DNA of 64,000 bases from Trichococcus palustris (GTDB taxonomy: Bacteria > Bacillota > Bacilli > Lactobacillales > Aerococcaceae): the NCBI RefSeq assembly GCF_900114465.1, contig NZ_FOTD01000012.1, forward strand, positions 1 through 64,000, in the 5' to 3' direction. How positions within the stretch are numbered: position 1 is the stretch's first letter; each line of letters starts with the position of its first letter. The translations under genes were made by a program, and so were the position numbers. The notes under the pieces were generated by a model that saw only the letters and a list, made by a program, of their open reading frames with translations, ran no database searches and had not been told where the DNA came from. Below are positions 14,892-29,694 of the stretch, piece after piece.

Positions 14892-15818
14892 TTACGGATT
14901 CATGCTCATCCAGCTGTCCAGATGATGGATGCCGATGCCGCTGAATGCGCGGTTTTTACTGAAGTATTGTCTGACGAGGTTTAATTCATTGTACATGTAG
15001 GTGCTGCCTTCTTCGAAGAAGGTTACATAAGTCGGATCACCAACGTTTTCCGTTTCCACAGCAATGGTTGCACTGGCATTGTATTGCTTAGCCAAAGTCA
15101 TTTCCGCTGCAGCGAGTTGATTGATGCCGTTGGCTCCGGCGGCGGTATCCCTGTATGCCATGATGGTCACAGTCTTGATGTTATTGAAGATCCATGCGGC
15201 AAGATTTCCTGTTCCGTATCCTGTGCTGTAAGAGACTTCGTTAAACCAGAAGGGAATATCGATACCCAAATTCAAGGACAAGTTGCTGGCGGCATTTTTC
15301 GCATTCAACAAGAAATCCTGATAGCGGTTCAATACGGCATTTGGATCAGTGTTGTATCCGGTGCTATAGTGATAGGGCTCTACATCAAGATGGATTCCCT
15401 TGAACTGGGCCGCGACGGCAGAGTTGGCCTGATAATCCGCAACCCAAGCGAAGAAGGCGTCCTGATACACGCCACCATTTTCCATAACCCAATCCGGAGA
15501 TCCGTCCAAGGCATGAACAGCAATGTTGTTGGCGGATGCTCTGCTGATGAAATCCTGGTAATAGGAATAGTCCAGATTGTAATTGACCTGCAAATAAACG
15601 GTGGTGACATGGTTATTTACCAAGAATGTGAGGATGTTATCCGAATTGTAAGTGATTTCGTTCGTATCCCAAAGCCAAGTAGAATACCCTTGAGGACTTG
15701 TACTTGTAGCGGCGCTGCTATTTTTGTTGGATGCGGCCTGTGCAATACTTGTTGGCGTAAAGAGAAGTGCGATGAACAGAATGATCAGGATAAGTTTCAT
15801 TGATTTCATTGGCTTCAT
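14892..15818 (-). CDS. Secreted GH18-like TIM-barrel protein
   Basis: A 308-aa exported protein. A signal peptide (about 1-28, LILIILFIALLFTPTSIAQA-A) is followed by a single barrel-like domain. GIHLDVEPYHY resembles the DxxDxE strand of GH18-type hydrolases, and VTIMAYRDTA resembles their MAYD strand. Only part of the canonical acid motif (D-x-E) is present. I infer a carbohydrate-active or amidase-like role at the cell surface, and no close family can be named. GAGGT lies 8 bases before the start. It faces away from the polysaccharide genes beginning at 16166. Confidence 0.7.
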   Translation of the reverse strand: MKPMKSMKLILIILFIALLFTPTSIAQAASNKNSSAATSTSPQGYSTWLWDTNEITYNSDNILTFLVNNHVTTVYLQVNYNLDYSYYQDFISRASANNIAVHALDGSPDWVMENGGVYQDAFFAWVADYQANSAVAAQFKGIHLDVEPYHYSTGYNTDPNAVLNRYQDFLLNAKNAASNLSLNLGIDIPFWFNEVSYSTGYGTGNLAAWIFNNIKTVTIMAYRDTAAGANGINQLAAAEMTLAKQYNASATIAVETENVGDPTYVTFFEEGSTYMYNELNLVRQYFSKNRAFSGIGIHHLDSWMSMNP

Positions 15819-16165: not shown

Positions 16166-18340
16166 ATGAAAAAAAAAATGAACAGAAGGAAACAGCTTGT
16201 CGCAACACTGGGCATTTTGTTGATCGCATCGGTAGCCCTTGCCTACTTTTTGATTCAGAACGGTGCGGCAGCGGCAAAAGAGGCTGCCGTCTATAAAGAA
16301 GCCGGGTTATCCTTTGTGTCGAAAACGGAAGGCAAAGATTTTTATGTCTACAAGGATGAAAAATGGGAAAAGACGTTCCTGAAAGGCGTCAATATCGGTG
16401 CCGCAAAGCCGGGCTATTTTCCCGGGGAACTCGCCATCACGAAGGAGGAATATTTGCGTTGGTTCCGGTACATCAGCGAAATGAATGCCGAGGTGATCCG
16501 GGTATACACAACCTTGGAACCTGCTTTTTATGATGCCTTGTATGAATATAACAAGGAGGCCGCAAAGCCGCTCTATCTTATGCAGGGTGTGTGGATCAAC
16601 GAAGCAGATATCGCCGAACTGCAGGATGCCTATGCGGAAGACGGAAAAATTAAAAACGACTTCATCAATGATGCCAAGGACTTGGTGGATATTTTCCACG
16701 GGAATGCCGTTCTTCCTAAAAAAGCCGGCTTTGCGAGCGGCGAGTACACGAAGGACATTTCGCAATATGTCATCGGTTGGATTTTAGGGATTGAATGGGA
16801 TCCGGATTTTGTGGATACGACAAATGCGAACAACCCTGACCGAACGAGCTATTCAGGAGAATACACCTATACAGAGAATGCATCACCGTTTGAGACATTT
16901 CTGTGCGAGGTGGGCGATGCGGTTCTGACGTACGAAGCCAACAAATACCAGACAACGCGGGCATTGGGCTACGCGAACTGGGTAACGACCGATATGCTGA
17001 AGCATCCGAGCGAGCCCTATGAGAAGGAGGATAGGGCGGTCGTTAATACGGAACATATCAAGGCACAGAAAAAATTTTTGCCGGGACTGTTTGCCTCCTA
17101 CCACATTTATCCGTACTATCCTGATTTCCTGAGCTATCAGAAGGATTATGTCACCTTTGTGGATGAGGAAGGTAAAGTCAACACCTATCGTGCCTATTTG
17201 CGGGATCTGATGAAGCAACACACCATACCGGTCCTTGTTGCCGAATTTGGGGTTCCCGCATCGAGGGGAAAAGCCCACGAAAGTCTATACTCCGGCTATA
17301 ATCAAGGCCAACATGACGAGACGGAACAGGGGGAGATTGTGGCCGATCTCCTTGGGGATATCTATGCGGAAGGCTATTGCGGCGGACTGGTCTTTACTTG
17401 GCAAGATGAGTGGTTTAAACGGACCTGGAACACGATGGACTTCGATTTAGCCAACAGACGCGCTTACTGGTCAAATCCGCAGACGAACGAGCAGGAATTC
17501 GGGCTGATGGCTTTTGACCCAGGCGAGAAAGAGAGCATCTGCTATGTTGACGGCGATATTTCGGATTGGGCAGAGGACGAACCGATTTCCAAAACGAAAG
17601 ATGGCTCCTTGTATGTGAAGTCGGATGAGAAATATGTCTATGTGCTCGCTAAGACAACGGATTTCACATTCGGGGAAGATACTTTGTATATCCCGGTTGA
17701 TTCATTGGGCGGACAAGGAAATGCGGTTGATGCCAGCAATGGTCTGCAGTTTAAGCGGCCGGCGGACTTTCTGATCAAGATCAACAGCAAAGATGATGCC
17801 CGGATACTGGTGGATGCCTATTATGACTCCTTCTATTATCTGTATGCCGAAAAGTTGAAAATGATCGAAAAAAATGCGGATTATACAGTCGCAGGAGCGG
17901 GTATCTTCAATCCGATTTATCATTGCCTTTCGAGGGAGATCTATCTGCCTGAAGATCAAACAACCGTGCCTTTTTCAAAGTACGAGACCGGCAAATTGAG
18001 CTATGGCGATGCCAATCCTGAACACGATGCGTATAATTCGCTGACAGATTTTTCTGTGAAGGACGGGAATATCGAAATCAGGATCCCATGGCAGCTTTTG
18101 AATGTCATGGATCCTTCAACAAAATCGATCATGGGGGATCTCTACAAAAATAATGGCGTCACAGCCGAACAGACCGATAAGATGTATTTCGGCATGGGCG
18201 TCGTAAAAAGCGGAGAAACAGCACATTCCGAAATCGCCATGAATGCCTATTCGTGGGATTCATGGGATCTGCCGACCTATCATGAAAGGCTGAAGCCGTC
18301 CTATTATATCCTGCAGAATCTCTTCGAAAAGCTGCAGTAA
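16166..18340 (+). CDS. Membrane-anchored glycoside-hydrolase-like protein of polysaccharide locus
   Basis: A 724-aa protein. An N-terminal positively charged stretch and one membrane segment (about 12-33) anchor it outside. A TIM-barrel glycosidase-like domain follows (about 70-430), with LKGVNIGAAKPG, IGWILGIEWDP and PVLVAEFGVPAS. The last two are in the positions of the acid/base and nucleophile Glu of clan GH-A enzymes. The C-terminal half (about 455-720) begins CYVDGDISDWAEDEPI and looks like a CBM9/DOMON-type sugar-binding sandwich. It lies directly upstream of the signalling and synthase genes, so I infer trimming or release of their polysaccharide. A terminator separates it from them. 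Confidence 0.72.
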   Translation: MKKKMNRRKQLVATLGILLIASVALAYFLIQNGAAAAKEAAVYKEAGLSFVSKTEGKDFYVYKDEKWEKTFLKGVNIGAAKPGYFPGELAITKEEYLRWFRYISEMNAEVIRVYTTLEPAFYDALYEYNKEAAKPLYLMQGVWINEADIAELQDAYAEDGKIKNDFINDAKDLVDIFHGNAVLPKKAGFASGEYTKDISQYVIGWILGIEWDPDFVDTTNANNPDRTSYSGEYTYTENASPFETFLCEVGDAVLTYEANKYQTTRALGYANWVTTDMLKHPSEPYEKEDRAVVNTEHIKAQKKFLPGLFASYHIYPYYPDFLSYQKDYVTFVDEEGKVNTYRAYLRDLMKQHTIPVLVAEFGVPASRGKAHESLYSGYNQGQHDETEQGEIVADLLGDIYAEGYCGGLVFTWQDEWFKRTWNTMDFDLANRRAYWSNPQTNEQEFGLMAFDPGEKESICYVDGDISDWAEDEPISKTKDGSLYVKSDEKYVYVLAKTTDFTFGEDTLYIPVDSLGGQGNAVDASNGLQFKRPADFLIKINSKDDARILVDAYYDSFYYLYAEKLKMIEKNADYTVAGAGIFNPIYHCLSREIYLPEDQTTVPFSKYETGKLSYGDANPEHDAYNSLTDFSVKDGNIEIRIPWQLLNVMDPSTKSIMGDLYKNNGVTAEQTDKMYFGMGVVKSGETAHSEIAMNAYSWDSWDLPTYHERLKPSYYILQNLFEKLQ

Positions 18341-18365
18341 ATCGATATACAAATACAAATGAAAT

Positions 18366-18413
18366 GAGAAGGCCAGTATTCCGTTTGTCGGATTTTGGCC
18401 TTCTCTTTTTTTT
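18366..18413 (+). terminator. Terminator after glycosidase-like gene
   Basis: GAGAAGGCC (18366-18374) pairs with GGCCTTCTC (18397-18405), followed by eight T residues. Confidence 0.85.
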
Positions 18414-18508
18414 GTAGCGTGCCATAAGGGGAAATTGGAAGGTCGTTGCGTGAAAAACAGCATATATATTTTTGGAATTAACATTCGAAAAGTTATCACT
18501 ATTTAAAG

Positions 18509-18538
18509 TGACTTTTTTAGGCAACGCTATGTTATAAT
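18509..18538 (+). promoter_or_regulatory. Promoter of the signalling-synthase operon
   Basis: An extended -10, TGT-TATAAT (hexamer 18533-18538), has TGACTT (18509-18514) at 18 bp. The leader to the next start codon is about 50 nt. Confidence 0.6.
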
Positions 18539-18601
18539 TCTGTTTATTGAGTAAATAAAATAGCATAAAATTAATAGAGAAATATATCGAGGTATAAACT
18601 T

Positions 18602-20566
18602 ATGGAAAATCAATTGAGTAGCATGGGAATTACAGATGACGTATATAGACTAGGGGATGTCGAAAGCCAGTACAATACGTATCTGATGATAGATAGTGGG
18701 GAAGGGATTCTGATCGATCCCGGATCAGCGTTGGGTTTTGAAAGGGTTTTCTCTGAGCTGGTAAGCATCATACCTTTGGAAAAGATCAAGTACGTAATCG
18801 TGCATCACCAGGGGCCGGATTGTTGCGCCAGTCTTCCTCTGTTTGAGCAAAGAGGCTTGCAGGCGACTGTGGTAACCCTTGGGATAACGGCCGATTCTTT
18901 GCAATTTTATGGGGTCACATCGCCTATTTATAGCGTAAATGAGGAAGGTTTCAAACTGACGTTGTCATCGGGGCGGGAACTTCTGTTTCTGACGCTGCCC
19001 TCGGTGCACGTTGCCGGGGCCATGCTGACATACGACAGCGGATCGAAGACACTCTTCTCGAGTAATCTGTTTGGGCCAACCATAAACAGCCGGAGCGGGT
19101 TACCTGCGGAAGCAGGTACTCTTGCACAATACCCGCACACTGGCGCGATGGTGGGGTCGGTAATTGAGAAGCTGCTGCGTTTGGATATCGCAAGAATTGC
19201 CCCTCAAAACGGGGAAGTGATCGACCAGGATGTAAAGACGTACATCAAAAAAATGCGGGATTGTGATACTAGCAACCACAGCGAGCAAAGACTCTCGGCA
19301 TCAGGCAGCTATTTGAACGCCTGCAACCGGGTGATAAAGCGGCTTTATACCATCTATGAACCGGAAAAGGTAGCGGCGGTACTGAAAAGAGAAGGCGTCC
19401 TGTTGGATGAACAGACGGGGCTGGTCCGGGATTTTGATGCAACCGGGCGAGAGTCTTGGAATAGATTGTTTGAAGTATTGTTCAGTGAACAAGGGATCCG
19501 CGTCTTGCAAATACTGGAACCCTTGGTGCAGACCATAGAAAAGGAGGACGATATTCCGATACCGGATCTCCTGCATTCCAAACTGTTGAAGAGGGACAGG
19601 AAAATTAAAGAAATCAACGACAAGTACCGGAAGCTGGAGGCGTTCAATCAGAACCTGGTGAATAGCATCGAAAAAATCCAGGACAAGTTCATCCGTTGCC
19701 CCAACACCGGTCTATTCAATGAACTGTTCTTTCAGGATTTCATGAAGACGGCGGGCAACGATTTTCCCGAGGGTGCCCTGTTTCTGATCGATATAGATAA
19801 CTTGGCGGACATCCGATTGCATTATGGAACCAAGTATAGAGATGAAACCATGAAAAATCTTGCTTATCTATTGAAACGGGAAAAAGGAAAAATGCATCGG
19901 CTATTCAAAATAGAGGATTCGTTGTTCGCCTACTTCATTCCGGAGACAAATGGGAATGAAGCCCAATCCCTGGCGGAACAAATCAGAACAATGGTTGCGC
20001 AATCGGATATCTTCAGAGAAAAAATCACCTTATCCATTGGCCTGGTTCTCTTTAAAGAGCTTGGCGAGCAGGTGAGGACACCGGAATGCATTTCCGAATT
20101 CCTCCATAATAGTGCGTTCAACCGTTTGAGGATAGCCAAAATAAATGGGAATACGGTATGCGGTGCATCATCTGCGGAAATGGACGGGAGTCTCGTCAAA
20201 ACGGTACTGCTTGTGGATACGGATGACATGAACCTGGAGCTCATGAAGAGTGCGTTTGAGAAGGATGGCATCAAGGTGTACACCGCAAACGACGGCGTCG
20301 CGGCACTCGCGATAACCGATACGGAAAAGATTGATTTGATCATTTCCGAGCTGATGCTTCCCAAGATGGACGGCTTGTTGTTGAAGGAGAATCTGTCCTT
20401 CTATTCCGAACGGGAAAAAATTCCGTTCATTCTGATTTCTCATAAGAAGGATAAGCCAACGATGGAGAGGGCGCTCCTGGTGAATGTGACCCATTATTTC
20501 AAAAAACCATACATGTTCACGGAACTCATCGGTATCGCAAAAAACAGATTGAAAGGCGGTATCTGA
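18602..20566 (+). CDS. ODP-type metallo-beta-lactamase / degenerate GGDEF / receiver protein
   Basis: A 654-aa cytoplasmic signalling protein. Residues about 10-215 form a flavodiiron/ODP-type metallo-beta-lactamase fold, but ligands are lost: the HxExDH motif reads H69-Q-G-P-D73-C74, the SxDxFG motif reads SSN155LFG, and the last His is N203 (PQNGE). H136 remains. A coiled coil (about 325-362) leads into a GGDEF-like domain (about 365-520) that keeps NTGLFNELFF but has FKIEDSLF in place of RxGGDEF. Residues 532-652 are a receiver domain whose phospho-acceptor Asp is E583 (DLIISELMLPKMDG). It is probably a regulatory protein for the synthase encoded 1 bp downstream. Ligand unknown. Confidence 0.85.
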   Translation: MENQLSSMGITDDVYRLGDVESQYNTYLMIDSGEGILIDPGSALGFERVFSELVSIIPLEKIKYVIVHHQGPDCCASLPLFEQRGLQATVVTLGITADSLQFYGVTSPIYSVNEEGFKLTLSSGRELLFLTLPSVHVAGAMLTYDSGSKTLFSSNLFGPTINSRSGLPAEAGTLAQYPHTGAMVGSVIEKLLRLDIARIAPQNGEVIDQDVKTYIKKMRDCDTSNHSEQRLSASGSYLNACNRVIKRLYTIYEPEKVAAVLKREGVLLDEQTGLVRDFDATGRESWNRLFEVLFSEQGIRVLQILEPLVQTIEKEDDIPIPDLLHSKLLKRDRKIKEINDKYRKLEAFNQNLVNSIEKIQDKFIRCPNTGLFNELFFQDFMKTAGNDFPEGALFLIDIDNLADIRLHYGTKYRDETMKNLAYLLKREKGKMHRLFKIEDSLFAYFIPETNGNEAQSLAEQIRTMVAQSDIFREKITLSIGLVLFKELGEQVRTPECISEFLHNSAFNRLRIAKINGNTVCGASSAEMDGSLVKTVLLVDTDDMNLELMKSAFEKDGIKVYTANDGVAALAITDTEKIDLIISELMLPKMDGLLLKENLSFYSEREKIPFILISHKKDKPTMERALLVNVTHYFKKPYMFTELIGIAKNRLKGGI

Positions 20567-20567
20567 T

Positions 20568-23432
20568 TTGAAAATGGAAGCACATTTGATCATTATCCTC
20601 ATCTTCGGGATCATTGCTGTGACGGGTATGCTGGTTGCATTGACTTTCTTCAGAAAGAGAAGGCATGATCTGGAAAAAGAAGAAACCGCAGCAATGGACC
20701 GCTTCATCATCAATGGCCTTTTTGGAGCCGATACATCCCTTTCCAAAAAAGACGGTAGACGGTTCATCGAGCGTTTCACTGCTTTGAAACAGAGTGTGGC
20801 CACCGATGGGGAGATGGAAAGCCAATTCAGTGCCATCGTTGCATCTTGCGGATTGGATGCATACTACATGAAGCGGCTGAAGTCCAAGTTGAAATTCAGG
20901 AGAATCGAAGCCGGCGTCTATTTAGGCATCATCGGTACGGAGGCTGCCCGGGAGGCCCTTGAACAGGCCGTTGGACGGGAAAAACATTATTCAGCAAGGC
21001 TGTATCTCATCAGTTCGTTGGTAGATATCGGAAATCCGGAATCGATACCGAACATTGCAAAGACCATTCTGGATGCGCCGGATTGGTACCGCGAAAAAGT
21101 GCGGGAAATGCTGTACGAGTTCGGAACAGACTGCTTTGATCATTTCGCTGAAATAAAAGACAGCGCCCGAAAAGAATACAAAGAACTGATCATCGGTTTC
21201 GCAGAAATTTACCCGGTCAGCAACCTGATAGATTACTTGAGAGGGCTTACAAGGGATCAGGAAGAAGAGGAGAGCATCCGCTATAAAGCCACGACTGTCT
21301 TGACGAAAATCTATGCTCTAGAAACGGATCGGCCCGAGTTTATGAATCACGCGGATCCCTATATACGGGGCATTGCCGTCCAGGGATTGGGTTCCAATCC
21401 ATCCGTTGTCAATTTGTTGCGGTTGATCCCGCTGCTCGCGGACGAAGAAATGGGAAGCCATGCACATGCGGCTATAGCCAAAATCATCGCGGCAAAACCA
21501 CCGCAAGTCTGCATTCTGGCCGAAGAGTTCCATAAATATGAAGATGATGGGGTCAGGAGCAGCCTGGCTGAGCTGATTTCAAAGCGGATCGACTACATGA
21601 TGCTGAAGGTGTCGGCGGACAATGCGGGCGAATTCAGAGCCATCCTCAAGGAAATCATGCGGAGAGGACACAACAGCAGCATCATCGGTTTTCTGAATAA
21701 AAATAGGGACAGCAACCTTGAATCGGCAATCATCCCCATCCTCAAGGAAGTGTTTGAGGAGAGCCCAGCCGTGAAAAAGGAATACCGCATCTATTTGGAC
21801 GATTGGCTGCTGAAGAAATGCGATCTGACCAGATACGTATCCAAAAACAATAGGAAGGAAGAAACGCACAACAAGTGGGTAGTGGCCTATCTCTATTTCC
21901 TGGTTTTTGTATTGCTGTTCAGCTTTCCGGCCGTATATGCCCTTCGTCACCGGGAACTGCTCATGACGATGACGTTATTCGAACAATTGAAGGTTTATGT
22001 GGTCGACTTCAACTATTACCTGATCTACTACACTACCGCGGTGAACGGTGTCTATCTGTTCCTGCTGTTTTGTTCCTTTATCGGGGTCACGAAGCAAGCG
22101 AAATATTGGAACCTGAAGAAGCTGCCTTTTTTATTCAGAAAGAAGATGCTGCCTTCGGTTTCGATCATCGCACCGGCCTTCAATGAGGAAGCGACCATCA
22201 TCGAAAGCGCCAATTCGCTCCTTAATCTGAGGTACCCCGACTATGAACTCATCATCGTCAACGACGGTTCAAAGGACAGCACCCTCGAAACCCTGATCCA
22301 ATACTTCAAGCTTGAAAAAGTGGATGTGAGGGTGGATGAGAAGCTGAAGGCGATGCCGATCAGGGGGATCTATCGGAACGCATCCAGACCCAAATTGACG
22401 GTTGTGGACAAAGAGAACGGCGGCAAGGCGGATTCCCTGAATACGGGTATAAACATCTCCTCAAAAGACTATTTTTGCGGCATCGATTCCGATTCACTGC
22501 TGGAGACGGATGCGCTGCTCAAATTGACTTCGCTGTTGGTTGATGAAGAAGTGGAGTGTCCCGCAATGGGCGGAAACATCTTCCCCATCAATGGTTGCGC
22601 CGTTGATAACGGGACGCTTACAAGCCTCAATATACCCGACAATCATGTGGCAAAACTGCAGACGATCGAGTACATCAGGGCCTTCATGGCTGGCCGGGTC
22701 GGCTGGGCGCAGCTGAATTGCCTGTTGATCATTTCCGGAGCCTTCGGGTTGTTCAAAAAGGACCGCATCATCGAAATCGGCGGCTATCTCACCAGTAGCG
22801 GAAAATACAACAAGAATACCGTTGGCGAGGATATGGAACTGGTGGTTCGGTTGAACCGCCATATGCTGGAACAAAGCCAAAAATTCAAAATAAAATATGT
22901 CTACAACGCCAACTGTTGGACAGAGGTGCCCGAAAGTTTCAGGGTGCTGAAAAGCCAACGGGACAGATGGCACAGAGGGCTCATCGATATCTTGACCTTC
23001 CACCACGAGCTTATCGGCAACCCAGACTACGGGAGGGTCGGGATGATCGCGATGCCTTACTTCTTCATCTTCGAGATGATGGGGCCGCTTGTGGAGATCC
23101 AAGGCTATATCATGGTGGCGTTGGCGGCTGTATTGGGATTGTTGAACCAAGAAATCGCCCTGCTGCTTTTTGCATCCACGATCCTGATGGGGATCCTGAT
23201 TTCTGTTTCTTCCCTTTATCTGGCGGAAAAGGAATCGGATTATTTCAGCTTCAAGGAGCTGGCAATACTTGTGCTCTATGCCTTTATGGAAAATTTCGGG
23301 GCAAGGCAGTTGATCAGCTTATGGCGGGTGACGGGATACCTCAATTCCTTGAAAAAACCGAAGGGCTGGGGCAAGATGGAGAGAAAAGGATTCGCCGGCA
23401 AGACCAGCACTGCAGATTTCCCGAATGCTTAG
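20568..23432 (+). CDS. HEAT-repeat / family 2 glycosyltransferase membrane fusion (polysaccharide synthase)
   Basis: A 954-aa membrane protein. A membrane helix (about 5-28) is followed by a cytosolic alpha-helical region (about 70-425) of HEAT-like repeats (ARLYLISSLVDIGNPESIPNIAKTIL, YIRGIAVQGLGSNPSVVNLLRLIPLL). Two membrane segments (about 437-460, 480-505) precede a processive GT2 domain (about 525-800) with VNDGSKDS, GIDSDS, GEDMEL and the SQRDRW (QxxRW) motif. C-terminal membrane helices complete a PgaC/hyaluronan-synthase-like layout. It makes a beta-linked polysaccharide from a UDP-sugar, product unknown. The start is TTG 20568 with AGGCGG about 10 bases upstream, or ATG 20574. HEAT repeats may be the docking site for the upstream regulator. 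Confidence 0.88.
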   Translation: MKMEAHLIIILIFGIIAVTGMLVALTFFRKRRHDLEKEETAAMDRFIINGLFGADTSLSKKDGRRFIERFTALKQSVATDGEMESQFSAIVASCGLDAYYMKRLKSKLKFRRIEAGVYLGIIGTEAAREALEQAVGREKHYSARLYLISSLVDIGNPESIPNIAKTILDAPDWYREKVREMLYEFGTDCFDHFAEIKDSARKEYKELIIGFAEIYPVSNLIDYLRGLTRDQEEEESIRYKATTVLTKIYALETDRPEFMNHADPYIRGIAVQGLGSNPSVVNLLRLIPLLADEEMGSHAHAAIAKIIAAKPPQVCILAEEFHKYEDDGVRSSLAELISKRIDYMMLKVSADNAGEFRAILKEIMRRGHNSSIIGFLNKNRDSNLESAIIPILKEVFEESPAVKKEYRIYLDDWLLKKCDLTRYVSKNNRKEETHNKWVVAYLYFLVFVLLFSFPAVYALRHRELLMTMTLFEQLKVYVVDFNYYLIYYTTAVNGVYLFLLFCSFIGVTKQAKYWNLKKLPFLFRKKMLPSVSIIAPAFNEEATIIESANSLLNLRYPDYELIIVNDGSKDSTLETLIQYFKLEKVDVRVDEKLKAMPIRGIYRNASRPKLTVVDKENGGKADSLNTGINISSKDYFCGIDSDSLLETDALLKLTSLLVDEEVECPAMGGNIFPINGCAVDNGTLTSLNIPDNHVAKLQTIEYIRAFMAGRVGWAQLNCLLIISGAFGLFKKDRIIEIGGYLTSSGKYNKNTVGEDMELVVRLNRHMLEQSQKFKIKYVYNANCWTEVPESFRVLKSQRDRWHRGLIDILTFHHELIGNPDYGRVGMIAMPYFFIFEMMGPLVEIQGYIMVALAAVLGLLNQEIALLLFASTILMGILISVSSLYLAEKESDYFSFKELAILVLYAFMENFGARQLISLWRVTGYLNSLKKPKGWGKMERKGFAGKTSTADFPNA

Positions 23433-25497: not shown

Positions 25498-26496
25498 ATG
25501 AGAAAAATAATGGGAAAAATTACGATATTGGTTCCTGCCTACAATGAGGAGGCCGTTATTGAGAAAATGTACGAAAGATTGAATGAAGTCTGCGCAAACT
25601 TGAACCGACACACCTTCGAGTTCCTGTTTGTCAATGACGGCAGCCGGGATCGGACACTCCAGCTCGTTAAACAGCTGAAAGAGAAAGATGATAGGGTCCA
25701 ATATGTGGATCTGTCGCGTAATTTCGGCAAAGAGGCGGCCATGATTGCCGGCCTTGACTATACCCAAGGGGATGCGGTCATCATCATCGACGCAGATCTG
25801 CAACAGCCACCGGAACTTTTTGAAGAGATGATCCATTGGTGGGAAGAAGGCTATGATGATGTCTATGCCGTAAGGAAGGAAAGAGAAGGCGAGAGCTGGC
25901 TAAAGAAATGGACTTCCCGGAAGTATTACCATTTGCTTCAAAAAGTATCCCAACAGGATGTCTATCCTCAAGTGGGCGATTACCGTCTGTTGGACAAAAA
26001 ATGCATCAATGCCCTTAAGCAACTGAGGGAACGGGAACGCTATACGAAAGGGTTGTACAGTTGGATCGGCTTCAAGAAGAAAGAAATATCCTATGTGGCC
26101 CAGCCAAGGGTTGCCGGCGAAACCAAATGGAAGTTTTCCAGTTTGCTGAAGCTTGCGATCGACGGCATCACTTCCTACAGCACCGTGCCTTTAAAAGTTT
26201 GGTCGATCGTCGGCATCATCATCTCTCTTTTCGGGTTCATCGTTTTGGCGATTGAAGTGATAAAGACTTTGATTTTTGGCTCAAACGTAGCCGGGTATAC
26301 TTCACTGTTTGCCGGAATCTTTTTTCTGGGAGGCATCCAGCTTATTTCGTTGGGGATCATCGGGGAATACCTAGGGCGGGTCTTTATCGAAACAAAAGAG
26401 CGTCCGTTGTATTTCATTCAGGAATATTCCGAGTCGGATCAGGTGGAAAACGAGCCTGGACAAAGGTCGGAAATCCGAAATGGCAGAGGTGATTAA
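25498..26496 (+). CDS. csbB: GtrB/CsbB-type undecaprenyl-phosphate glycosyltransferase
   Basis: A 332-aa GT2 enzyme. It has ITILVPAYNEEAVIEKMYERL, FVNDGSRDRTL, IIDADLQQPPELFEEM and the conserved region up to GDYRLLDKK, followed by two C-terminal membrane helices (about 232-255 and 265-290). It transfers a sugar from UDP-sugar to undecaprenyl phosphate on the cytoplasmic face. First gene of a three-gene operon with gtcA and yfhO. In Bacillus and Listeria such sets decorate lipoteichoic or wall teichoic acids. The donor sugar is not predictable. AAGGA lies close to ATG 25498. Confidence 0.92.
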   Translation: MRKIMGKITILVPAYNEEAVIEKMYERLNEVCANLNRHTFEFLFVNDGSRDRTLQLVKQLKEKDDRVQYVDLSRNFGKEAAMIAGLDYTQGDAVIIIDADLQQPPELFEEMIHWWEEGYDDVYAVRKEREGESWLKKWTSRKYYHLLQKVSQQDVYPQVGDYRLLDKKCINALKQLRERERYTKGLYSWIGFKKKEISYVAQPRVAGETKWKFSSLLKLAIDGITSYSTVPLKVWSIVGIIISLFGFIVLAIEVIKTLIFGSNVAGYTSLFAGIFFLGGIQLISLGIIGEYLGRVFIETKERPLYFIQEYSESDQVENEPGQRSEIRNGRGD

Positions 26497-26502
26497 GGCG
26501 GC

Positions 26503-26919
26503 ATGGAGAGGTTGAAAAATTTATATGAAAAATTTGAAGAGGTCATCAGCTATTTGATTTTTGGCGGACTTACGACAGCCGTCAATATCGCTGTGTTCTT
26601 TCTGTGCAATACGATACTGGGAATGAATTATTTGGTCGCTAATGCGATCTCCATCGTCGTTTCCATCCTCTTTGCTTTTTTCACGAATAAAAAATATGTT
26701 TTTAAGACGAAAACACCTACGTTCAAGGAAAGCTTCCTTGAGTTCATCCGATTTTGCACCTTCCGCTTGCTCTCGGCCGTGTTCGACATGCTCAGCATGT
26801 GGATTTTGGTTGACGGGATCCATTTTGATGCCAACGTGGCAAAGATAGCGACACAGTTCATTGTGGTCGTATTAAACTACGGCTTCAGCAAATGGTTCAT
26901 TTTTAAGCAGAGGGGATGA
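26503..26919 (+). CDS. gtcA: GtcA/GtrA family flippase-like membrane protein
   Basis: A 138-aa GtrA-family protein with four membrane segments (VISYLIFGGLTTAVNIAVFFLC, NAISIVVSILFAFFTNKKYVF and two more). It ends in the family motif FVVVLNYGFSKWFIFK-. It is thought to flip lipid-linked sugar to the outer leaflet. It lies six bases after the GT2 gene and six before yfhO, fitting translational coupling of the three-component glycosylation system. Confidence 0.92.
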   Translation: MERLKNLYEKFEEVISYLIFGGLTTAVNIAVFFLCNTILGMNYLVANAISIVVSILFAFFTNKKYVFKTKTPTFKESFLEFIRFCTFRLLSAVFDMLSMWILVDGIHFDANVAKIATQFIVVVLNYGFSKWFIFKQRG

Positions 26920-26925
26920 TCAGGC

Positions 26926-29694
26926 ATGTTTGAAGAAAAAAATGTGACAAAGAAAACAGCTGTCTATTATACCGGCCTATTTTTAGTGATGACGGCCCTC
27001 ATCTACGGGTACTTTGTGAGGGAACAGAAGTCATTCATTTGGGAAGGCGACGGTTTTTCACAGCATTATCTCGTCTTTAAGGATTACTTGAGCATGTGGC
27101 GAGGATTTTTAAGCCATCCAACGCAAGGATTCCCTTTTTGGGATTGGAACATCGGCTTGGGGTCTGACGTCATCGCCTCTTACGGCTATTATGTGATCGG
27201 GGATCCGTTCGTCTATCTCGGCCTGCTGTTTCCGGAAGGTATGACGGAATTAGCTTATCATGTGTTAGTACTGGCTCGTGTGTACGTGGTCGGCTTGGCT
27301 TTCTTGGCCTTCTGTCGGCAAGTGAAGATAAAAAATCCAGGCGCCTTGTTTGGAAGCATCCTCTACACATTCACTTTTTACGTGGTTTTGAATGTGGTCA
27401 GGCATCCGTTCTTTCTCCTGCCGATGATCAGTTTTCCCTTGTTGTGTCTGGGGATGGACCGGATTCTACGGGGCGGATCGAACAGCGCCTTTATTTTGGC
27501 CGTTTTTTTCAGCGCCTTCAGCAATTTTTATTTCTTTTACATGCTGACGGTGTTGGTCTTTATTTTTGCGATCACCCGCTATTTCAATCTGAATGGCATC
27601 AAGGAATGGAAAAGCATCTTCGGGTATGTTTGGCGGGCCCTTTATTCCTATACCATCGGGGTGCTGATGGCCGGTATCCTTTTGGCTCCCGTTGTCTGGG
27701 GATTTTTGCATTCTTCCAGACAACCGGGGGAATTCGCTGCCGGGTTGAAGTTTTATCCGTTTGGATATTATCTGGGCTTGGTTACAAACCTCTTGGTCAC
27801 AGAACGATTCTTATGGACAGTCTTTGGCTTCGCCGCCTGTACGGTGCTGTTGGCCCCCTTGCTGTTTCTGTGGCGCAAGAAAATCGGCTACATCACAGCG
27901 AACCTGTCGGTATTTGCCGTCATCCTGCTGCTGCCGGCTTTTGGTTCCATGATGAACGGTTTTTCGGGACCCTATAACCGCTGGACTTTCGCGATCCCGC
28001 TCTTTATTTCGGCTGGATCGGCGATACTATTCAATGAACGGTTTAACCTGACACGTTCTGAACTGAAGGCGATGGGGCTTTCGGCAGTTGTGTTCAGTTC
28101 GATTCCGCTCGTGGTTGCCGCTGGAAATGTGGTTCCGTTTCGGTTTGCCTATATCGCCCCGGTTATCCTCGCTTGGTTGATGTGGGCGCTGCTGGTCTGG
28201 GCATACTGGCGAAACCGATCCGGCTGTTTAAGCAGCAATGCGAAGACCACCATTTCCATTGCGCTGGTGGTATTGGCAATGGTAAATTTGATCTTCAATG
28301 CGCGTGATTATTATCAGGAAAATGGTAAAAACGAGGCCGCGACTCTTTTGGATTATGGCACAGTGGATGAAAGGTATAAAGAGACATTTGGCGGCGCAGA
28401 GCAGCTGATCAAAGACCCGGGAATCTATCGGATAGGCGTGACCTCCAAAGATAACAACTTCAAAAATCAGATGGCTTTGCTGAACCTGATGGGGATGAAT
28501 TCCTATCTTTCCGTTACCAACGGGGCGGTTGCCGATTTCGCGAAGCAACTGGAAAATAATCAATTTCAATTGATCCAACCCGTCCGGTGCGGATTTGATG
28601 ATCGCCGAATCATCAATAACCTGTTGGGTGTAAAGTATATTTTGACAGAAGCCGGGAATGCCAAATATCTGCCTGACGGCTATAAAGTGGTTCAACAGAC
28701 CGGCGATGGCAAAGGCGCGTTTGTCGTTGCGCAGAGCGATCAGGCCTATCCCTTTGCCTATGCGGAATCGGTGTACCTTTCAACGGAAGAGTTCGAAAAA
28801 TACAATCCGGTGGAAAAAGAAGCCTTCCTGTCCTACGGGATCGTGCTGGAACCGACAGAGAAGGATACGGCGGCATTATCGCCATTTGAAGGGAAACTGG
28901 ATGTCAAGACTGCGGCTTTTTCATTGGCATCGTCTGATCCGGAAAAAGTGCAAATTTCCGGAGATACGATCACGGTCAAAGATGGTGGAGGCACAATCGA
29001 GTTGCTGCTGAACGATCCGCAAGAATTAGCGAACGCAGAGGTGTATGTGCATTTGAAAGGTTTGCATTTCGAACCGAATTCCCAAGACAACTACGGCTGG
29101 ACGTCAACCGGCTTTGCCGCACTGGTGTCCTTTGCGGATCTGACCAAAGAGGTCGACCAAAGCGATATATTGGACTTCAGTTCCTATTTCCACCGCGATA
29201 ACATGCTGTTCAACATGGGGAGCCAAGGGGATACAGTGTCGTCGGGTTCCCTAAGCCTGCAGTTGAATGCTACAGGCACGTACAAAATAGACGACATTAA
29301 AATCTATGCGTATCCGTTTGATGGACAGTACGCCGCCCGCGTATCAGAAAAACAGGCGAATGCCTTGGCTATCAAGACTTTTGCGGATACCAAAGTAAGC
29401 GGAACGATCACGCAGGCTAAACCGAGCGTGCTCACGACCTCCATCCCTTATACTCCCGGATGGAAAGCGGAAGTCAATGGCAAAGCGGTCGGAACGGTGA
29501 AGGTGAACTACGGATTTATCGGCATTCCGCTGTCTGCGGGGGAATCGGAAGTTACGCTGACTTACCAAACGCCGTTCCTGAAAATAGGGGCCGTACTCTC
29601 CATTTCCGGCCTTCTCCTGCTGTTTTGCAATCAACGCTTTTGGAACAAGAAAAGACAATCATCTTTACCCCAGCAAGAGAAGGAACACGTTTAA
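26926..29694 (+). CDS. yfhO: YfhO family membrane glycosyltransferase
   Basis: A 922-aa GT-C-type membrane protein. An N-terminal membrane helix is followed by the extracytoplasmic loop carrying WEGDGFSQHYLVFKDYL (conserved acidic residues), about a dozen membrane segments to about residue 460, a large extracellular domain (about 470-890) and a final membrane helix. In the CsbB-GtcA-YfhO model it moves the sugar from undecaprenyl phosphate onto teichoic-acid polymer outside the cell. It closes the operon. The 3' end overlaps one arm of a direct repeat that flanks a structured element. Confidence 0.92.
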   Translation: MFEEKNVTKKTAVYYTGLFLVMTALIYGYFVREQKSFIWEGDGFSQHYLVFKDYLSMWRGFLSHPTQGFPFWDWNIGLGSDVIASYGYYVIGDPFVYLGLLFPEGMTELAYHVLVLARVYVVGLAFLAFCRQVKIKNPGALFGSILYTFTFYVVLNVVRHPFFLLPMISFPLLCLGMDRILRGGSNSAFILAVFFSAFSNFYFFYMLTVLVFIFAITRYFNLNGIKEWKSIFGYVWRALYSYTIGVLMAGILLAPVVWGFLHSSRQPGEFAAGLKFYPFGYYLGLVTNLLVTERFLWTVFGFAACTVLLAPLLFLWRKKIGYITANLSVFAVILLLPAFGSMMNGFSGPYNRWTFAIPLFISAGSAILFNERFNLTRSELKAMGLSAVVFSSIPLVVAAGNVVPFRFAYIAPVILAWLMWALLVWAYWRNRSGCLSSNAKTTISIALVVLAMVNLIFNARDYYQENGKNEAATLLDYGTVDERYKETFGGAEQLIKDPGIYRIGVTSKDNNFKNQMALLNLMGMNSYLSVTNGAVADFAKQLENNQFQLIQPVRCGFDDRRIINNLLGVKYILTEAGNAKYLPDGYKVVQQTGDGKGAFVVAQSDQAYPFAYAESVYLSTEEFEKYNPVEKEAFLSYGIVLEPTEKDTAALSPFEGKLDVKTAAFSLASSDPEKVQISGDTITVKDGGGTIELLLNDPQELANAEVYVHLKGLHFEPNSQDNYGWTSTGFAALVSFADLTKEVDQSDILDFSSYFHRDNMLFNMGSQGDTVSSGSLSLQLNATGTYKIDDIKIYAYPFDGQYAARVSEKQANALAIKTFADTKVSGTITQAKPSVLTTSIPYTPGWKAEVNGKAVGTVKVNYGFIGIPLSAGESEVTLTYQTPFLKIGAVLSISGLLLLFCNQRFWNKKRQSSLPQQEKEHV

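Follow-up and report, generated by a model that had tools for sequence, protein, structure and literature searches.

A degenerate ODP-GGDEF-REC protein linked to a HEAT-repeat glycosyltransferase in Trichococcus palustris: a possible non-enzymatic adaptor

Synthase-dependent polysaccharides are usually taken to be under the control of c-di-GMP. The closest described systems include PelD of the Pel system, found in Pseudomonas and Bacillus cereus, which is a degenerate GGDEF protein encoded together with a polysaccharide synthase and which binds c-di-GMP through an intact RxxD motif. In the excerpt of the PelD paper that we draw on (PMC7112168), the pel operon is described as having other genes, and there is no mention of ODP, REC or a HEAT-repeat subunit; the same excerpt notes that streptococcal PelD, from species for which c-di-GMP use is not known, lacks that degenerate domain. 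Likewise, the Listeria PssA-E cluster directs exopolysaccharide synthesis and requires a degenerate GGDEF protein, PssE, which is an I-site c-di-GMP receptor and for which the excerpt of PMC4125290 mentions no ODP, REC or HEAT domain. The ODP domain is known from sensors of Treponema denticola and Thermotoga maritima, whose output is chemotaxis. The Treponema ODP works with a chemotaxis-system partner, according to an excerpt of PMC7666581, and this provides a precedent for an ODP that acts with a partner. Finally, PgaC/IcaA, hyaluronan synthase and BcsA share a membrane GT2 fold with DxD, ED and QxxRW motifs.

The locus that we describe here resembles each of these systems in part. It lies in a 64,000-nucleotide stretch of Trichococcus palustris DNA, which is referred to as the window. 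As in the Pel and Pss systems, a degenerate GGDEF protein is encoded beside a presumed polysaccharide synthase, but the window protein lacks the I-site and carries ODP and REC domains as well. Its ODP domain is related to the Treponema and Thermotoga sensors (phmmer 6e-18 to 6qrq), whose matched PDB chains of about 253 aa have a diiron site and no GGDEF or REC domain, whereas the site in the window protein has been lost. The synthase has the same membrane GT2 fold and motifs as PgaC/IcaA, hyaluronan synthase and BcsA, but differs from them in having a HEAT solenoid in front and no PilZ match. The original prediction knew of no described system with this composition, and we likewise found no ODP-GGDEF-REC plus HEAT-GT2 system in the open-licence PMC literature.

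The locus consists of three plus-strand genes, each of which was confirmed, at the positions originally predicted, as an open reading frame with Pfam domains or fold matches, and we have high confidence in this gene layout and domain content. The first gene, GHl (16166-18340), encodes a membrane-anchored, glycosidase-like protein with a GH-A-like barrel and a beta-rich C-terminal part. The second (18602-20566) encodes a soluble protein of 654 aa with ODP, GGDEF and REC domains, and the third (20568-23432) encodes HEAT-GT2. The predicted 1-bp spacing between these last two genes was also found: ODP-GGDEF-REC ends at 20566 and HEAT-GT2 starts with a TTG codon at 20568; an ATG in the same frame follows at 20574. 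A terminator-like hairpin followed by a T run is present on the plus strand 3' of GHl at 18366-18413 (fold of 18360-18420, -25.5 kcal/mol, z -6.9); it was not among the elements listed by a pattern scanner. Given its location between the GHl and ODP-GGDEF-REC genes, the operon probably comprises only ODP-GGDEF-REC and HEAT-GT2, and the case for a three-gene operon is weakened. Divergent to the GHl gene, on the minus strand, is LIP (14892-15818), which encodes a secreted protein of 308 aa.

We examined the conserved sites of the ODP-GGDEF-REC protein domain by domain. Pfam matches ODP (18602-19276; PF19583, 120 bits against a cut-off of 27.2), GGDEF (19697-20176; 41 bits against 23.8) and Response_reg (20189-20563; 69 bits against 30.2), so the ODP fold is recognized by profile; no TM segment was predicted. 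Most metal ligands of the ODP domain, an oxygen-binding diiron type, are gone. Its HxDxD motif reads HQGPD, with the middle Asp missing, H136 is kept, a later Asp is N155 and PQH reads PQN; we take these positions (HxDxD, H, D and QH) to have the metal-ligand roles that they have in flavodiiron proteins. The ODP ligand set has been called unusual (excerpt of PMC7785958). In the GGDEF domain, the GG[DE]EF signature of an active diguanylate cyclase is replaced by EDSLF, and the RxxD I-site positions read GKMH, while the first Asp of the metal site (DID) is kept. The receiver domain has Glu583 in place of the conserved phospho-acceptor Asp and retains the KKP lysine. The orthologues of two sister species, 57 and 56% identical to the window protein, also have Glu at the acceptor position and have likewise lost their ODP sites (HPGPE and HQSSV; Asn; PRT and PRL), and the one in G063 additionally lacks the remaining His, equivalent to H136. 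As judged from these motifs, all three active sites of the window protein very probably are lost, in agreement with the original description of the control protein as possibly enzyme-dead.

The synthase, by comparison with known enzymes, is of a processive type. Pfam matches HEAT-GT2 to HEAT_2, Glycos_transf_2 and Chitin_synth_2, and its structural model (pTM 0.75) contains, in order, a TM helix, an alpha-solenoid at about residues 60-417, further TM helices, the GT2 domain and C-terminal TM helices, with TM segments predicted within residues 435-508 and 838-886. The sequence features expected of a processive membrane GT2 are all present, namely DxD (DSDS 640), ED (GED 753), Q(Q/R)xRW (QRDRW 797) and the C-terminal TM helices. 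When the GT2 model was compared with known structures using VIA, the best match was PcManGT, a mannosyltransferase (Z 25.7), with hyaluronan synthase level with it (Z 25.1 over about 382 residues), and BcsA reached Z values of up to 23.3. The PgaC_IcaA model (TIGR03937) scored 115.9 bits, far below its cut-off of 422.3, which places HEAT-GT2 outside that family. By analogy with GT2 domains of the hyaluronan and cellulose synthase type, HEAT-GT2 would be expected to polymerise and export a polymer.

GHl has a single N-terminal TM segment and no Pfam match, and Pfam and PDB sequence searches with it gave nothing useful. An AlphaFold2 model built from a 25-row alignment (pTM 0.86) was matched best, by both Foldseek and VIA, by the GH157 entry 9g4n, which contains bound laminaritriose (Z 28.5, 2.5 A, 297 residues). 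A further two GH157 entries (Z 25.0-25.2) score no better than GH2 glucuronidases (about 25), and the VIA matches are compatible with other GH families. E210 and E360, candidates for the two catalytic Glu of a GH-A glycosidase, are located beside or in barrel strands 202-207 and 356-361 and are invariant in 25/25 aligned relatives. No Pfam family is matched at E 0.01 by 24 of these 25 relatives, and the remaining one matches GH113 with an E value of 0.0093. GHl thus looks like a putative glycosidase with a GH-A-like fold. LIP also has no Pfam match. Its relatives, with 42-48% identity by blastp, are found in 11 of the best 80 of at least 567 GHl-containing stretches (L040, L043, L045, L046, L053, L054, L056-L059 and L063), near GHl, HEAT and GT2 genes. 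LIP is present in G063 (L024) and was not found in the G060 stretch (L025). It is probably part of the GHl/HEAT/GT2 system.

We used the GHl search of genome contigs, which returned at least 567 confirmed stretches, as the main source of related loci. In total, 92 loci were examined: the best 80 of these stretches, to which ten loci from the window's family and two from G230's class were added. GT2 is present in 78 of these 92 loci, fused to HEAT in 8 and unfused in 70. Profiles built from the HEAT part of a fused protein and from a separate HEAT protein each end at a set of 74 ORFs, and the two sets have 73 in common; Pfam found HEAT in all four separate proteins that were scanned. These results indicate that two genes, in most cases found side by side, have been fused in HEAT-GT2. 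Every fused HEAT-GT2 gene with visible upstream sequence (9/9, the window and 8/8 others) is directly preceded by a gene for a degenerate GGDEF-REC protein, and ODP is present in eight of the nine upstream proteins, Heliophilum being the exception. The fused pair was seen in genomes of the window's genus, in Heliophilum together with two genomes of its class, in two Clostridia and in one Mycoplasmatota MAG. The neighbourhood singled out in the original prediction therefore recurs across distant Bacillota and one Mycoplasmatota MAG, and we regard the linkage of the regulator gene to fused HEAT-GT2 genes as conserved with high confidence. Among the 70 unfused GT2 loci, drawn from the set that includes the best 80 of at least 567, none has an ODP gene among the four preceding or the three following genes; beyond these counted neighbours, the ODP profile also matches lone proteins in L075 (259 aa) and L027 (246 aa). 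GHl is present in the fetched stretch of seven of the nine fused loci (the window and six others) and was not found in 19 kb around the pair of G230 or on the 5.6-kb contig of G512.

The distribution of the pair was also assessed in larger sets of genomes. An even sample of 398 Bacillota genomes contained GT2 in 30, fused to HEAT in three (G000, G230 and G125), and in what is apparently the same draw no genome other than these three had a match spanning GGDEF-REC; such large draws may miss matches, since few candidates were scored per genome (three for regulator searches, two for GT2). G125 is apparently the Heliophilum of L042, with the same gene order, and was counted once. Matches to ODP that did not cover GGDEF-REC were obtained in G096, G129, G140, G243 and G268, and are free-standing proteins of 242 aa in G268 and G140 and a protein of 241 aa in G129. 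Within the class of G230 (82 genomes), four genomes have the fused gene and three of these have the regulator gene; the fused gene of the fourth, G499, is cut off at a contig start and was left out of the nine. Searches of small classes (5 and 17 genomes) gave nothing useful. An A4 search of 398 genomes of the window's own class, with three candidates scored per genome, matched the window only. We also built a GT2 tree of 73 rows, rooted at the midpoint and omitting L030, L032, L033, L085, short rows and rows without a HEAT neighbour. The fused GT2s form one group (support 100/99), in which G512 and Heliophilum are the neighbours of the window's genus (97/94); the unfused GT2s of that genus's own family lie apart from it in the tree. 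Within the window's genus, 3 of 13 genomes carry the pair, with the frame open and the genes adjacent in all three. Taken together, the rarity in the window's class, the tree and the few carriers in the genus suggest that the pair was gained horizontally.

Given this conserved linkage, we compared the sites of the nine upstream proteins. The GGDEF motif is degenerate in all nine, none having GG[DE]EF, and the REC acceptor is Glu in eight, with Asp in G230 only. In contrast to the three members from the window's genus, the five ODP-containing members from outside it (G230, G512, L077, L096 and L060) all keep the ODP ligands, which makes a diiron sensor the probable ancestral state; that the ancestral input was oxygen or redox (O2, NO or redox state) has, in our estimate, an even chance of being correct. 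We then considered what lies upstream of the 66 separate HEAT genes in the loci that include the best 80 of at least 567. REC-bearing genes occupy this position in 26 cases, compared with about 3.2% of other ORFs; GHl does so in 33 cases, a figure biased by the fact that most loci were found through GHl, and the remainder comprise 3 LIP genes, 2 other genes and 2 contig edges. The REC-bearing genes encode lone REC (8), REC-REC (3) and REC-GGDEF-REC (15) proteins. Among the eight lone RECs, the acceptor is Asp in five, Glu in the two from Desulfosporosinus and Asn in L028. In the 18 proteins with two RECs, the last REC has Asp, and the residue in the first REC is not constant (L048 has Gln, L091 has Glu, and both L099 and L114 have Asn). 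The 15 GGDEF proteins have GGEEF in twelve cases, SGDEF in one and altered motifs in two (SGEKF and GGDVF). As these upstream genes were picked for having REC, the shared REC proves nothing alone, and as a REC gene is absent upstream of half the separate HEAT genes, control by REC is not universal in the family.

We propose, with a probability of about 0.5, that the ODP-GGDEF-REC protein is a non-enzymatic adaptor that gates the synthase by docking on its HEAT solenoid. The locus would thus encode a synthase-dependent exopolysaccharide system in which HEAT-GT2 makes a surface polymer, and GHl at the surface, probably together with LIP, may trim or release this polymer outside the cell. The REC/pseudo-GGDEF part would dock on the cytosolic HEAT solenoid and gate GT2. 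In the relatives, iron together with O2, NO or redox state would provide the input through ODP, whereas in the window's lineage, given that the ODP site, GGDEF motif and REC phospho-acceptor have all been lost, the protein would be a constitutive scaffold or would answer to another ligand or partner. Direct contact with HEAT, as put forward in the original prediction, is suggested by how strictly the regulator gene accompanies the fused gene and by the lone REC genes upstream of eight separate HEAT genes, and these lone RECs, together with a REC that is dead but retained in the fused clade, point to REC and HEAT as the site of contact. There are observations that fit this proposal less well. 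Linkage may reflect co-regulation only, and GHl, not REC, is directly upstream of 33 of the 66 unfused HEAT genes, subject to the bias described above. In addition, the ODP domain of the window protein is 43-46% identical to those of its own genus and 45% identical to the intact ODP of G230, and this equal divergence suggests relaxed constraint.

We weighed four other explanations against the adaptor proposal. The degenerate GGDEF domain might activate the synthase as a receptor for c-di-GMP, in the manner of PelD and Listeria PssE, where I-site binding controls the Pel and Pss polymers (excerpts of PMC7112168 and PMC4125290). We consider this highly improbable. An R..D I-site is present in none of the nine clade members, as opposed to 10 of the 15 REC-GGDEF-REC proteins encoded upstream of separate HEAT genes. 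Moreover, Pfam searches of 13 genomes of the window's genus for GGDEF, EAL and PilZ found that in the window genome (G000) and in G063 the degenerate GGDEF is the only GGDEF over the cut-off, with no EAL or PilZ match; a second, sub-threshold GGDEF match in G000 is GdpP, a c-di-AMP phosphodiesterase. In the third carrier, G060, which has the triad, additional GGDEF (four) and EAL (three) matches lie elsewhere in the genome, and there is no PilZ match. For the window genome, where the I-site is altered and these partners are absent by Pfam, we judge c-di-GMP control to be very unlikely and reject it, and to this extent the original suggestion is supported.

The dead sites could instead mark a decaying relic, whose control has been lost and whose synthase is constitutive, and the loss of all three domains' sites in the three genus members, in which ODP diverges fastest, would be expected in that case. 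Nevertheless, the frame is open and the genes are adjacent in each of these genomes, and the coil is 82-96% identical among them. We estimated dN and dS from the G063/G060 pair only, since dS is saturated or nearly so in pairs with the window. The values for this pair are 0.127 and 0.993 for the whole gene (dN/dS about 0.13), 0.192 and 1.645 for the dead ODP domain (about 0.12, with dS near saturation), 0.018 and 0.357 for the coil (0.05), 0.095 and 0.815 for the degenerate GGDEF, and 0.061 and 0.518 for the degenerate REC. This is moderate evidence, from one species pair, that the gene is under purifying selection, and a relic is accordingly unlikely. To the same degree unlikely is an action through some other bound nucleotide or partner, such as GTP on the pseudo-GGDEF or a histidine kinase at the Glu-receiver, in place of HEAT gating: the retained DID Asp and KKP lysine would suit it, but it leaves the strict link to the HEAT-GT2 fusion unexplained. 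Co-transcription alone could also hold the two genes together while the protein serves a different target, so that linkage would imply no contact. This we regard as quite unlikely, given that the linkage is 9/9 over several classes even though GHl can be absent, as in the 19 kb around the pair of G230.

If the adaptor proposal is correct, it would link oxygen or redox state to matrix production without recourse to c-di-GMP, and the clade would offer a natural series, from intact ODP to all sites dead, for studying how a sensor turns into a scaffold. The HEAT solenoid is the likely control surface of a GT2 family seen in 30/398 Bacillota genomes, in three of them as the HEAT fusion, and one branch pairs HEAT-GT2 with an oxygen-sensor-type protein whose GGDEF is dead in every one of its nine members seen. 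A wider reading, which we put forward tentatively and think somewhat doubtful, is that a Bacillota family of HEAT-gated GT2s is switched post-translationally by HEAT-docking receiver-type proteins, that one clade with a diiron O2-type sensor forms a direct oxygen-to-polysaccharide switch requiring neither c-di-GMP nor phosphorylation, and that the window's lineage has become a pure pseudo-sensor scaffold.

Several additional features were observed at the related loci and genomes. Bacillaceae-type loci (L091, L092, L094, L101-L103, L106, L111, L112 and L116) contain REC-GGDEF-REC, HEAT and GT2 genes, a GHl gene of ~1020-1115 aa, a lone REC and a REC-bearing gene of ~960 aa, which is a hybrid histidine kinase in L101; a weak Hpt match is present in the REC-GGDEF-REC proteins of L101 and L107, and these loci appear to hold a dedicated relay for a synthase. 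Ruminococcus-type loci (L061, L068, L071, L072, L074, L075, L079, L080 and others) have GHl in two or three paralogous copies placed around HEAT and GT2, and an upstream gene of ~730-755 aa, with an HD_5 domain in that of L061. In the window's family, VTC, DUF4956 and CotH-kinase genes precede GHl/HEAT/GT2 in L026 (121-3004) and L027 (11680-14554), as named by Pfam for L026 and through look-alike ORFs for L027. In G019, G018 and G010 of the same family (L030, L032 and L033), the unfused GT2/HEAT genes are split or have in-frame stops and are close to an EF-Tu-like gene, named by eye. Other species of the window's genus (G060, G061, G065-G067 and G069-G071) have several genes for GGDEF and EAL proteins, for the most part located on a single contig, and the window genome is without them. 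Further along the window, at 25498-29694, PgfS-like GT2, GtrA and YfhO-family genes form a glycosylation-type cluster.
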